In this document: one piece after another, positions 4,402 to 61,541 of the stretch
Position numbering within the stretch: position 1 is the first letter of the stretch
Layout: the number at the start of each line of letters is the position of its first letter
From: Rhodospirillales bacterium
GTDB taxonomy: Bacteria > Pseudomonadota > Alphaproteobacteria > Rhodospirillales > SHVQ01
DNA: 64,000 nucleotides
Direction of reading: 5' to 3'
Assembly (NCBI GenBank): GCA_009694195.1
Contig: SHVQ01000008.1
Coordinates: 1-64,000, forward strand
Notes under the pieces: generated by a model
What the model was told of the DNA's origin: nothing
Database searches by the model: none
The model's input: only the letters and a program-made list of their open reading frames with translations
Translations under genes and position numbers: made by a program

Positions 4402-5256
4402 TCATCGCGGGCCCGCAAACCGCGCGTTCGCCGACATGGCGAGCGCCCCGTCCGGCCCCGCCGCCCACAGCTCCGCGCCATCGTCCTTCGGCGTCCCCGA
4501 GAGCGTGAACGGCTCCCCCGCGATCAAGGGACTGAGACCGCGGAACTCGAAATGCGTGAGCGCCCGCCCGCCCTCCCGCCGGCAGAGATCCATCAGAAGC
4601 GTTGCAATCAACGGGCCGTGGACGAGCAGTCCCCGATAGCCTTCGGTCCCGACCGCGTAAGGATGGTCGTAGTGGATGCGGTGGCCGTTCATCGTGAGCG
4701 CGGAATAGCGGAACAAGAGCACGGAGTCCGGACGAACCGTTCGCCGCCAGAGTCCGAATGACGGCGCCGGCTTCGGTGGCGGGAGCGCCGCGCCCGGCTG
4801 CGGCGCTTCGCGGTAGACGATGTCGTGTTCTTCGACCAGCGCGACGCCATCCGTCCCCGCGACCTCGTGACGGACGACGACGAAAATCATGGCGCCCGTC
4901 CGGCCCTCTTTCAACGTCACGTCGCGAATTTCGCTCGTCCGCGTCACCGCCTCGCCGATGCGGAGCGGGCGCGCGAATTCAAGCCTGCCGCCGGCCCACA
5001 TACGGCGCGGCAGCGGCACGGGCGGAAGAAAGCCGCCACGCTTCGGGTGCCCGTCGGGCCCCAGCTCCGATTGGCGCGCGGGTTCGAGGAAATAGAGCCA
5101 ATGCGCGCCCGGCGGCAGGGGATCGCCCGGAGCAGGAACCGAGGGCTCGTCATCGAGCAACGCGGAAAAGGCCCGCAAGGGCGCCGGAGTCAGGCTATCC
5201 GCGGATATCGATCGGCGGCCGATCCATGGGCGCAATTGATCGATGTCGACGTTCAT
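4402..5256 (-). CDS. HTD2/FAS1-type hot-dog acyl-CoA dehydratase, mesaconyl-C4-CoA hydratase-like
   Basis: 284 residues, the normal length for the double hot-dog MaoC-related family that includes 3-methylfumaryl-CoA (mesaconyl-C4-CoA) hydratase. The N-terminal half contains [20 protein letters not shown], typical of this family, and the C-terminal half has [16 protein letters not shown], the hydratase motif with Asp/His, followed by [16 protein letters not shown]. The predicted reaction is reversible hydration of an enoyl-CoA. It is the first gene of a two-gene minus-strand unit with the CaiB CoA-transferase. The precise substrate is inferred only from the partner gene. Confidence 0.82.
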
Positions 5257-54724: not shown

Positions 54725-55411
54725 ATGATCACCGTCGATTTGGAGACCGCGGGCGGCGTGCGCGCGCTGAATGACCGCCTGCACAAGCTGCCGCACGATA
54801 CCAACGAAACCGCCTGGAAGGTTCTCAACCCGATGGGGGCGCACGCGGTCGCCGTCGGCGTGAACGCGCCGATCCAGGTCGAGATCGACGGCCACGTCGG
54901 CTACTACTGCGGCGGCATGAACACGGACGCGACCATCACCGTCAACGGCCACGCCGGCCCCGGGCTGGGCGAGAACATCATGTCCGGCACGATCCGCGTG
55001 AAGGGAAACGCCTCCCAGTCCGCGGCCGCCACCGGGCGCGGCGGCCTCGTGGTGATCGAAGGGAGCGCGAGCTCGCGCTGCGGGATCGCCATGAAGGGCG
55101 TCGACATCGTGGTCGGCGGCGACGTCGGCCACATGAGCGCCTTCATGGCGCAGGCCGGGCATTTGGTCGTCTGCGGCGACGCGGGCTCGAGCTTGGGCGA
55201 CTCGATTTATGAAGCGATCCTCTACGTGCGCGGCCAGGTCGAGAGCCTCGGCGCCGATTGCATCGAGAAAGAGATGACTCCCGAGCACCTGAAGACGGTC
55301 GAAAGCCTGCTCAAGCGGGCGGGCGTGAAGGCCGATCCGAAGGCGTTCAAGCGCTACGGCTCGGCCCGCAAGCTCTACAATTTCAAGATCGACAACGCGG
55401 CGAATTACTAG
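54725..55411 (+). CDS. mgsB: GXGXG-domain subunit (GlxC / N-methylglutamate synthase MgsB)
   Basis: 228 residues, equivalent to the C-terminal beta-helix (GXGXG) domain of glutamate synthase. The repeating GHVGYYCGGMNTDATITVNG, HAGPGLGENIMSGTIRVKGN and VVGGDVGHMSAFMAQAGHLV pattern shows the right-handed helix. It follows mgsA by 10 bp. In a normal cluster mgsC comes next; here 571 bp of repeat-bounded DUF559 sequence intervene. Confidence 0.92.
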   Translation: MITVDLETAGGVRALNDRLHKLPHDTNETAWKVLNPMGAHAVAVGVNAPIQVEIDGHVGYYCGGMNTDATITVNGHAGPGLGENIMSGTIRVKGNASQSAAATGRGGLVVIEGSASSRCGIAMKGVDIVVGGDVGHMSAFMAQAGHLVVCGDAGSSLGDSIYEAILYVRGQVESLGADCIEKEMTPEHLKTVESLLKRAGVKADPKAFKRYGSARKLYNFKIDNAANY

Positions 55412-55453
55412 ATGACAGCGCGCTGGCCGGAACACGTTTCCACGGACATCGAA

Positions 55454-55481
55454 GCCCCTCTCGCGCGCGAGCGGGAGAGGG
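55454..55481. repeat. Left inverted hairpin arm of the DUF559 element
   Basis: GCCCCTCTC, then CGCGCGAGCGGGAGAGGG with one central difference from the right arm. It is itself a hairpin (CCCTCTC/GAGAGGG with GCG core) and is the inverted copy of 55935-55962, 27 of 28 bases matching. Further inside, GGGTGAGGGCTATT mirrors AATCACCCTCACC near the right arm, so the symmetry extends beyond the core. Confidence 0.88.
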
Positions 55482-55531
55482 TGGCGAACCCGCGGGATTG
55501 GCCTGCGGGGAGCCGGGTGAGGGCTATTCCG

Positions 55532-55870
55532 TCAGCCCCGACGAGGGCGACTCAGGACGCGCAAGATGGTCCCTTGCACCGCATCAATGTTGGTCAGAAT
55601 GTCGGTGTTCCAAAAGCGCAGCACCTTCCAGCCATGGCGCTTGAGCCAAGCGGTTCGGCGTTGGTCGTCGGTGCATCCGGAGTGCTGACCGCCGTCGGCC
55701 TCGATCACAAGGCAGTATTCAATACAGGCAAAATCGACCACGAACGGCCCCAGCGGATGCTGACGGCGAAATTTGTATCCTCGCAGCCGCTGTCCACGCA
55801 GCGCCGACCACAGCCGGCGTTCGGCATCTGTCATTGTCGCCCGCAAGCGGAGTGCCGTGCGGTTGGGCAT
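55532..55870 (-). CDS. DUF559 endonuclease-like protein inside an inverted-repeat element
   Basis: 112 residues from ATG 55870; the frame continues upstream into the right repeat arm but that part is translated repeat. The DUF559 (Vsr-like, PD-(D/E)xK) core is complete: TDAERRLWSALRGQRLRGYK, FRRQHPLGPFVVDFACIEYC, VIEADGGQH, then RRTAWLKRHGWKVLRFWN. The acidic D, E and Q/H positions expected for metal binding are present. It is antisense to the surrounding mgs genes and sits between 28-bp inverted hairpins, so it looks like a mobile or selfish unit. Activity is not shown. Confidence 0.88.
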   Translation of the reverse strand: MPNRTALRLRATMTDAERRLWSALRGQRLRGYKFRRQHPLGPFVVDFACIEYCLVIEADGGQHSGCTDDQRRTAWLKRHGWKVLRFWNTDILTNIDAVQGTILRVLSRPRRG

Positions 55871-55934
55871 CGTCGGCAGGATAGCACGAGTGTAAATCAC
55901 CCTCACCTTCCCGGCCCTGAAGGGCCGGGTCCCT

Positions 55935-55962
55935 CCCTCTCCCGCTCGCGCGGGAGAGGGGC
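55935..55962. repeat. Right inverted hairpin arm of the DUF559 element
   Basis: CCCTCTCCCGCTCGCGCG, then GGAGAGGGGC; reverse complement of the left arm with one mismatch. A second hairpin, CCCGGCCCT/AGGGCCGGG, lies just inside at about 55911-55929. The arm ends 20 bp before the mgsC start codon, so the mgsC ribosome-binding region is next to or part of the element. Confidence 0.88.
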
Positions 55963-55982
55963 TGTTCCGGAGTGAAAGCACA

Positions 55983-57305
55983 ATGTCGGTCGATCCGCGC
56001 AATCTCAGGGACTCGTACACGTACTCGCCCGATGTCATCGGCGAGATCCAGCGGGCGGCAAAGGAAGGGATCTATTCGATCCGCGGCGCCGGGGCCAAAC
56101 GCAGGCTGCCGACGTTCGACGATCTCGTGTTTCTGGGCGCCTCGGTCTCCCGCTATCCGCTCGAAGGCTACCGCGAAAAGTGCGCGACCGATGTCGTGCT
56201 CGGCACGCGCTTTGCGAAGAAACCCGTCCACCTGAAAATCCCGATCACCATCGCCGGCATGAGCTTCGGCGCGCTCGGGGTGAACGCGAAGCAGGCGCTC
56301 GGCATGGCCGCCTCGCAAATGGGAACGTCCACCACGACGGGCGACGGCGGCATGGTCGAGGAGGAACGGCAGGCCTCGAAGACCCTCGTCTACCAGATCC
56401 TGCCCTCCCGCTACGGCGTCAATCCGGATCACTTGAGACGCTCGGACGCGGTCGAGGTCGTCATCGGCCAGGGAGCCAAGCCCGGCGGCGGCGGCATGCT
56501 GCTCGGCCAGAAGATCACCAAGCGGGTCGCCGGCATGCGCACGCTGCCGGAGGGCATCGACCAGCGGAGCGCGTCCCGCCACCCCGACTGGACGGGGCCC
56601 GACGATCTGGAGATCAAGATCAATGAGCTCCGCGAGCTCACGGATTGGGAGAAGCCGATCTACGTCAAGGTCGGCGCGACGCGCACGTATTACGACACCG
56701 CGCTTGCCGTGAAAGCGGGCGCCGACGTGGTCGTGGTCGACGGCATGCAGGGCGGCACGGGTGCCACCCAGGACGTGTTCATCGAGAACGTCGGAATCCC
56801 GACGCTTGCGGCGGTTCGCTTGGCCGTAAAGGCACTGCAGGAGCTGGACATGCACCGGAAGGTGCAACTGATCGTGTCCGGCGGCATCCGCTCAGGCGCG
56901 GACGTGGCGAAAGCAATTGCCATGGGGGCGGACGCCGTTTCCATCGGCATGGCATCGCTCATCGCGCTCAATTGCAACGCGCCGCTCTATCTCGAAGACT
57001 ACGAGAAGCTCGGGACGGCTCCCGGCTTCTGCCACCATTGCAACACCGGGCGCTGTCCGGTCGGCGTGACGACCCAGGACCCGGAGCTGGAAAAGCGCCT
57101 GGATCCCGAGCAGGGTGCCCGGCGCGTCCGCAATTATCTCTCCACGCTGGTGATGGAAGCGCAGACCCTGGCCCGCGCCTGCGGCAAGTCGCACATACAC
57201 AATTTGGAGCCCGAGGACATGGTGGCGCTCACCATCGAGGCCGCCGCGATGGCGGGAATTCCGCTCGCCGGCACCGACTGGATTCCCGGAAGGAATCCGC
57301 TGTAG
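55983..57305 (+). CDS. mgsC: FMN-binding glutamate synthase-type subunit (GlxD / N-methylglutamate synthase MgsC)
   Basis: 440 residues, equivalent to the central FMN/synthase domain of glutamate synthase. Features are KIPITIAGMSFGALGVNAKQ, TGDGGMVEEERQAS, KPGGGGMLLGQKITKRVAGM, VDGMQGGTGATQDVFIENVG and the cluster motif CHHCNTGRCPVGVTTQDPEL. Transfers ammonia from MgsA to an acceptor; in the methylamine pathway it makes N-methylglutamate from gamma-glutamylmethylamide and 2-oxoglutarate. No Shine-Dalgarno is obvious (GGAGTGAAAGCACA precedes ATG). Confidence 0.92.
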   Translation: MSVDPRNLRDSYTYSPDVIGEIQRAAKEGIYSIRGAGAKRRLPTFDDLVFLGASVSRYPLEGYREKCATDVVLGTRFAKKPVHLKIPITIAGMSFGALGVNAKQALGMAASQMGTSTTTGDGGMVEEERQASKTLVYQILPSRYGVNPDHLRRSDAVEVVIGQGAKPGGGGMLLGQKITKRVAGMRTLPEGIDQRSASRHPDWTGPDDLEIKINELRELTDWEKPIYVKVGATRTYYDTALAVKAGADVVVVDGMQGGTGATQDVFIENVGIPTLAAVRLAVKALQELDMHRKVQLIVSGGIRSGADVAKAIAMGADAVSIGMASLIALNCNAPLYLEDYEKLGTAPGFCHHCNTGRCPVGVTTQDPELEKRLDPEQGARRVRNYLSTLVMEAQTLARACGKSHIHNLEPEDMVALTIEAAAMAGIPLAGTDWIPGRNPL

Positions 57306-58648: not shown

Positions 58649-58663
58649 AGGGCGGGAATCCAG

Positions 58664-58831
58664 CCCCTCACCCTTCCCTCTCCCCCAGATGGGGGAGAGG
58701 GTTGCTCAGGGTCTGCGGGGAATCCCCGCAAGTGTCCCCTTGGGTTGGCGCGGCGTCAGCCGCGCCTTACCCGCCTGCGGGGCCGAAGCCCCTGCGGCGC
58801 GGCGAAGGCCCGGAGCTGGGTGAGGGGGTGA
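58664..58831. repeat. Composite intergenic repeat, copy A (CCCCTCACCC...GGGTGAGGGG)
   Basis: 168 bp bounded by CCCCTCACCC and GGGTGAGGGG. Inside are the hairpin CTCTCCCCC/GGGGGAGAG and the palindromic core GGCGCGGCGTCAGCCGCGCC, with a GC-rich extra segment of about 70 bp not present in copy B. It fills the gap between gmaS and the M20 peptidase gene. Confidence 0.85.
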
Positions 58832-61437: not shown

Positions 61438-61535
61438 TCACCCCCTCACCCAGCTTCGGGTAGAGCGCGGCTGACGCCGCGCCAACCCTACACAACCCTC
61501 TCCCCCGTATAGGGGGAGAGGGAAGGGTGAGGGGG
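61438..61535. repeat. Composite intergenic repeat, copy B, inverted relative to copy A
   Basis: 98 bp whose reverse complement follows copy A: CCCCTCACCCTTCCCTCTCC, a GTATA-type loop, GGGGGAGAGGGTTG, then GGGTTGGCGCGGCGTCAGCC, GCTGGGTGAGGGGGTGA. The A-specific 70-bp segment is missing. Copies A and B therefore flank the M20-MFS pair as mirror images. It fills most of the 169-bp gap before the RND gene. Confidence 0.85.
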
Positions 61536-61541
61536 CGTACA

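Follow-up and report, generated by a model that had tools for sequence, protein, structure and literature searches.

A gene for a small nuclease of the DUF559 family lies between inverted copies of a BoxC-type repeat inside an operon of a Rhodospirillales bacterium, and DUF559 genes in many other genomes lie next to repeats of the same class, in a preferred orientation. Gene and repeats are present or absent as a whole unit at several sites, they co-occur in genomes, the repeat subtype is coupled to the enzyme lineage, and the gene is under purifying selection. We consider it probable that these elements form a repeat system resembling REP/RAYT but run by a Vsr-type nuclease in place of a Y1 transposase, with positions 55453-55963 of the analyzed DNA (hereafter the window, 64,000 nt) as an autonomous member. 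Both partners were previously known separately. We found no report of a DUF559-repeat link in the open-access literature, and on that basis the link would be new.

The layout of the locus is given in Table 1. A preliminary description, made from sequence alone, had proposed the order mgsB, inverted-repeat arm, antisense DUF559 gene, mirrored arm, mgsC, and both the repeat search and the Pfam matches confirmed it. The arms are separated by 447 nt that enclose the antisense open reading frame, and the 28-bp arms with 27 matching bases described earlier are real, forming a sub-stretch of the 32-nt arms. In both arms the hairpin is followed by a second small hairpin and then by a GGTGAGGG block directed at the gene. 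The DNA fold of the left unit has −24.4 kcal/mol (z −2.5) and that of the right unit −26.1 kcal/mol (z −5.3). A type III glutamine synthetase gene comes next after mgsC.

Table 1. Genes and repeat units at the mgs locus and further repeat units in the window
Feature	Position	Strand	Evidence and remarks
mgsA, N-methylglutamate synthase operon	starts 53815		
mgsB, gene upstream of the insert, interrupted operon	54725..55411	+	GXGXG PF01493 2.7e-11; FwdC-like
Left inverted arm, hairpin CCCTCTC..GAGAGGG	55453..55484	+	Repeat search; 32 nt, 94% complementary to right arm
Left TM unit, long-linker subtype, with a hairpin, a small second hairpin and the third block GGGTGAGGG	55458..55525	+	Unit scan, spacer up to 50; third block directed at gene
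DUF559 (YcjD family) gene, Vsr-like PD-(D/E)xK nuclease, 113 aa	55532..55873	-	Pfam PF04480 4e-37
Right TM unit, long-linker subtype, mirrored	55898..55958	-	Unit scan; third block directed at gene
Right inverted arm	55932..55963	-	Repeat search
mgsC, gene downstream of the insert, interrupted operon	55983..57305	+	Glu_synthase PF01645 4.7e-96
Solitary strict TM unit, repeat class of the DUF559 arms	58662..58698	-	Unit scan, spacer 12 or less
Long-linker TM unit, half of a tail-out dimer	61440..61519	-	Unit scan
Strict TM unit, dimer partner of 61440..61519	61499..61536	+	Unit scan

The mgsABC genes had been said to be normally contiguous, and in a survey of 150 genomes of the order Rhodospirillales mgsC lies directly 3' of mgsB in all 10 of 10 orthologues (mgsB identity ≥60%). 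As read from the junction sequences of these ten relatives, mgsC begins at most about 70 bp downstream, and the gap contains no TM (triplex-motif repeat, see below) and no DUF559. Because all ten mgsB orthologues adjoin mgsC directly, the DUF559 gene between mgsB and mgsC is, on sequence comparison, best read as a derived insertion, and the objection that it could be a fixed ancestral feature of the locus fails, all ten gaps being empty. Since the host genome, a draft of 2.5 Mb, is the sole sampled member of its family, the mgsB-mgsC junction has no base-exact empty site for comparison.

The window arms belong to the BoxC / PIT / intrastrand-triplex-motif (TM) class, in a long-linker subtype. 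BoxC/TM repeats have been known in E. coli since the 1990s and were counted in more than 260 genomes; E. coli MG1655 has 23 TM copies, its TM loci are highly rearranged and its TM sites unstable, and triplex formation in vitro was demonstrated for the E. coli motif only (PMC4666352). The DUF559-flanking repeats resemble this class in being multi-copy and in combining a hairpin with a mirror third block, but a nuclease gene is linked to them in cis, whereas no mobility gene was reported near TMs (PMC4666352), and the window arms have a linker of about 20-35 nt and a second hairpin. The window arms form the pyrimidine/purine-arm hairpin of the class, and the third block was found in them only when spacers of ≤50 were allowed, not at the short spacing (loops of few nt) of the strict definition (9-nt arms, spacer ≤12, mirror third block), which the units at 58662 and 61499 satisfy. 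The third block mirrors the purine arm: asymmetric blocks near DUF559 fit the mirror in 168 cases vs the direct repeat in 56, with 242 ties, overlapping registers being counted. A search of the window for hairpins of the form CCCTCTCCC-N(3-20)-GGGAGAGGG gave 3 matches, compared with 0.00 expected from 100 shuffles. Two further sites of the arm class, placed earlier at 58664-58831 and 61438-61535, proved real and correspond to the units at 58662-58698, 61440-61519 and 61499-61536, all with terminal GGGTGAGGG. A Rfam search gave one sub-threshold match, due to chance. We also observed that both sites contain a palindrome block of the GGCGCGGCGTCAGCCGCGCC type in their interior and end in CCCTCACCC / GGGTGAGGG, and that they look like short non-autonomous elements.

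The association was assessed in a separate collection of 80 DUF559 loci from named genomes, picked by protein similarity alone and drawn from Alpha-, Beta- and Gammaproteobacteria, Syntrophia, Desulfobacteria and one Chloroflexi MAG. Arm scores ≥20 were found around DUF559 at 53 of 77 usable loci, whereas 0 of 1,466 controls taken elsewhere on these contigs reached that score (locus L057, whose score of 96 was a run of N, was left out of the count). In the order Rhodospirillales, 25 loci had complete flanks; the arms of 17 of these scored 15-132, against a control maximum of 15. Strict TMs lie within 300 bp of DUF559 at 96 of 111 loci; there are 2.0 per locus where the contigs themselves would predict 0.035, a 58-fold excess. 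The third block of the nearest TM points toward the gene in 135 cases and away in 23, and outer units often face away, which gives an out-in-gene-in-out plan. At three loci (L035, L044 and L061) the TMs are present only as long-linker units, and a DUF559 copy on a P. aeruginosa plasmid (L213) has no TMs. The earlier expectation that DUF559 genes elsewhere would have flanking hairpins is borne out by these counts, and the proposed link of DUF559 to the repeats holds outside the window in terms of arms, TM proximity, tail-in orientation and co-occurrence; that the enzyme acts on the repeats we infer.

The host genome has a second DUF559 gene between carA and carB, flanked by 76-bp arms that are 97% complementary. 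The E. coli gene ycjD is also a DUF559 gene, with a strict TM at 5205-5239 of locus L033 and a degenerate TM beside the ycjD 3' end; one group of E. coli lineages carries ycjD, and others have the eef operon in its place (PMC12817139). TMs adjoin DUF559 in Neisseria gonorrhoeae, Deinococcus, Synechocystis and S. meliloti as well. The extension of the link to E. coli ycjD, Neisseria, Deinococcus and cyanobacteria goes beyond the preliminary description, as do the identity of the repeats as the known BoxC/TM class and of their tail as a third strand-like block. In two Deinococcus plasmids (L204, L205), DUF559 and TMs occupy two distinct positions within the hpa operon for aromatic degradation, and in L205 the inverted repeat extends about 20 bp past the TMs. 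In Pseudanabaena (L208), the TMs are replaced by an unrelated CCCCCTAAATCCCCC-type hairpin family (CCCCCTAAATCCCCCAATTCTGGGGG) flanking DUF559 with an inverted-repeat score of 59.

The relationship also holds at the level of whole genomes. In the 150 genomes of the order, with DUF559 presence defined as a match of ≥50 bits, the median TM-pattern count was 25 in the 34 genomes with DUF559 compared with 0 in the 111 without (p = 6e-17), and the difference is significant with p = 5e-5 by permutation within families. With two simpler hairpin patterns (A and B), 30 of 34 genomes with DUF559 possessed ≥5 hairpins compared with 19 of 111 without (p = 4e-14 by Fisher's exact test); TMs can therefore persist without the gene. 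B-type hairpins are commoner where DUF559 has B-type arms (GGGGGAGG) than where it has A-type arms (p = 0.0006), with three exceptions (G055, G101 and G125). One 99% complete genome (G059) contains 131 A-type hairpins and no DUF559, and the other two sampled members of its genus carry the gene. In drafts, DUF559 often lies within a few hundred bases of contig ends (G001:C37, G112:C126, G109:C26, G047:C12, G145:C96, G023:C103, G006:C404), which would follow from assemblies breaking at the flanking repeats, and draft DUF559 counts may be too low.

Occupied and empty versions of the same site were found at other operons. Between leuC and leuD, genome G101 contains a 552-bp TM-DUF559-TM insert, whereas its closest sampled relative (G156) has an 11-bp gap; the flanks of the two are uniformly similar up to the junction (identity 0.91-1.0), where no target-site duplication is readable. 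The site is empty in 12 of the 14 readable species of the genus, and occupied in G125 as well as in G101. In another genus the metF-metH site is occupied in two genomes (G093, G070) and is a 7-8 bp gap in three species, and carA-carB is a recurrent DUF559 site in several genomes, with the gene in either orientation. The empty sites at mgsB-mgsC, leuC-leuD and metF-metH contain no TM at all. An A. brasilense copy of DUF559 is fixed in 7 records, with no empty site among them. Presence or absence at any single site could reflect loss, or recombination or exchange of operon segments. Only 3 of 50,697 phages and 55 of 72,556 plasmids carry DUF559, a rarity that speaks against a transposon borne on plasmids.

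In the metF-metH gaps of loci L235-L247, gene-less inverted-repeat families differ by species (CACAGAGGCACAGAG, CACGGATGGACACGGAT), and gaps such as this one look like shared insertion hot spots. The carA-carB gaps of other genomes contain PDDEXK_3 (GxxExxY) nuclease genes or remnants (L157, L165, L168, L170, L147, L158), and L255, from the host genome, is another such gene or remnant. Inverted repeats of the ACCACGAAGGCACGAAGG / ACCACAGAGGCACAGAG type lie close to most of the carA-carB copies, which have no TMs; this suggests a second nuclease-repeat pair. We speculate, tentatively and with more doubt than conviction, that small stand-alone PD-(D/E)xK nucleases could generally run mobile systems that need no transposase, with every family spreading an interspersed structured repeat of its own (DUF559 the triplex-forming BoxC repeats, PDDEXK_3 those of the ACCACGAAGGCACGAAGG type).

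The window protein matches PF04480 with 126.8 bits against a curated cut-off of 20.6. The residues E13, D42, E53, D55, G56, H59 and D65 are invariant in 32 DUF559 sequences, with little or no variation among the acidic residues of the core and in the GGQH motif. An AF2 model (pLDDT 87.6, built from a sequence set with the E. coli row left out) gave Foldseek matches to 3hrl, 3r3p and 1vsr, the first being the gonococcal DUF559 protein NGO0050, 48% identical to the window protein. The dN/dS ratio between close DUF559 pairs is 0.07-0.17, a level that shows purifying selection and a maintained function. PDB profile matches to enterotoxin B chains (E ~0.5) are due to chance, and a defence-system reading was rejected, PADLOC giving only weak matches to large defence proteins and to Vsr. 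The Caulobacter DUF559 protein VsrA causes an SOS response when the methyltransferase ScmA is absent and was proposed to be a mismatch-repair nuclease (PMC12907096); this fits a nicking enzyme but provides no evidence for action on TMs.

Enzyme lineage and repeat subtype are coupled. The DUF559 tree, built from 103 columns only and with many forks unresolved, requires 26 TM-subtype changes compared with ≥31 in 300 shuffles and with ≥29 when shuffling was done within taxonomic class. The window protein clusters with those of L012, L030 and L035, and the long-linker TM subtype is common to all. Identity is mostly about 47-62% between paralogues of a single genome, but mostly 57-79% between these and their best relatives elsewhere. 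When TMs were swapped among paralogues of one genome, the observed protein-TM correlation was reached in 0 of 500 permutations. The overall Mantel correlation is weak (0.165) and borderline by unrestricted permutation (23 of 500), probably owing to the differing lengths of the TMs. DUF559 lineages thus appear to have their own TM subtype as a tendency, even among paralogues in one genome. The coupling signifies that gene and arms stay together and is also expected under mere joint inheritance of the two; recognition does not follow from coupling alone.

The scenario that we favor is a two-part system in which DUF559 would act as an endonuclease of the Vsr/I-Bth0305I type and the flanking TMs, each a hairpin with a third block that could fold back into an intrastrand triplex, would be its cognate DNA ends. 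The nuclease may recognize and nick TM DNA, and the cut may start copying or insertion, such that the gene and its inverted TM arms would insert as one unit into short intergenic gaps such as mgsB-mgsC; the many TM monomers and dimers of that genome that enclose no gene would be non-autonomous relatives. The comparison with RAYT made in the preliminary description, with a Vsr-like domain in place of the transposase, stands in terms of anatomy and genome-wide co-occurrence, and the Vsr fold is recovered by Foldseek. As in REP/RAYT, a small, conserved, low-copy and mostly chromosomal nuclease gene lies between inverted copies of a multi-copy intergenic palindrome, the repeat subtype tracks the enzyme lineage, and gene-less dimers are found elsewhere in the genome. 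The enzyme is however a PD-(D/E)xK nuclease rather than a Y1/HUH tyrosine transposase (PMC3733652, PMC6006769, PMC8266576), and a GGGTGAGGG-type tail or third mirror block replaces the GTAG-type tag at the hairpin foot of REP. Because enzyme and tag differ, the DUF559 system is not a member of REP/RAYT. Vsr, the very short patch repair endonuclease, has a similar fold (Foldseek TM-score 0.64-0.67) and belongs to the same PD-(D/E)xK superfamily (PMC1189080), but DUF559 differs from it in being flanked by repeats and in occurring as several divergent lineages in one genome.

The closest characterized fold is that of I-Bth0305I, an EDxHD/Vsr-like homing endonuclease and likewise a small stand-alone nuclease (TM-score 0.70), and the DUF559 gene could accordingly be a homing-type passenger that cuts its way into pre-existing TM dimers and is not the source of their spread, gene-less TM dimers in both orientations being the possible empty sites. 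We regard this as unlikely: DUF559 has no intron, intein or allelic cognate site, is bounded by inverted repeats, and lies in intergenic positions that are repeat-free in relatives, as at mgsB-mgsC, leuC-leuD and metF-metH, where the TMs were gained or lost together with the gene; moreover, TM subtype tracks the DUF559 lineage and not the genome. The Vsr fold, the purifying selection, the SOS link and proposed mismatch-repair role of Caulobacter VsrA (PMC12907096), and the instability of E. coli TM sites (PMC4666352) would also suit a host repair nuclease, either VSP-like or processing replication-stalling TM structures, that is kept where TMs are abundant and whose own TMs would be accidental or regulatory. 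Such a role would not lead one to expect that the gene, at new operon sites, has an inverted TM arm on either side, or that paralogues sharing a genome show subtype coupling, and we consider it distinctly improbable.

It is very improbable that the hairpins, although stable and located on both sides of the reading frame, are mere transcription terminators or insulators of a horizontally acquired small gene. The same sequence class occurs in many gene-less intergenic copies, termination needs neither the third block nor mirror symmetry, earlier studies, as cited in PMC4666352, saw no terminator activity of PIT/BoxC elements, and the controls elsewhere in the same contigs gave 0 of 1,466. TMs are multi-copy, and an abundant repeat could overlap an abundant gene by chance, but the 58-fold excess and the strong orientation bias refute this by comparison with the controls and make it scarcely credible.

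Returning to the nuclease-run repeat system, we propose that DUF559 may be what spreads the BoxC/TM repeat family, because enzyme and repeats co-occur widely and the package is sometimes inserted in an essential operon. E. coli K-12, which has both ycjD and about 23 TMs, allows the question to be tested directly. If the proposal is true, the BoxC/TM repeats would gain a candidate engine and the widespread DUF559 family a function, and a Vsr-type nuclease would do the job of RAYT with different chemistry.
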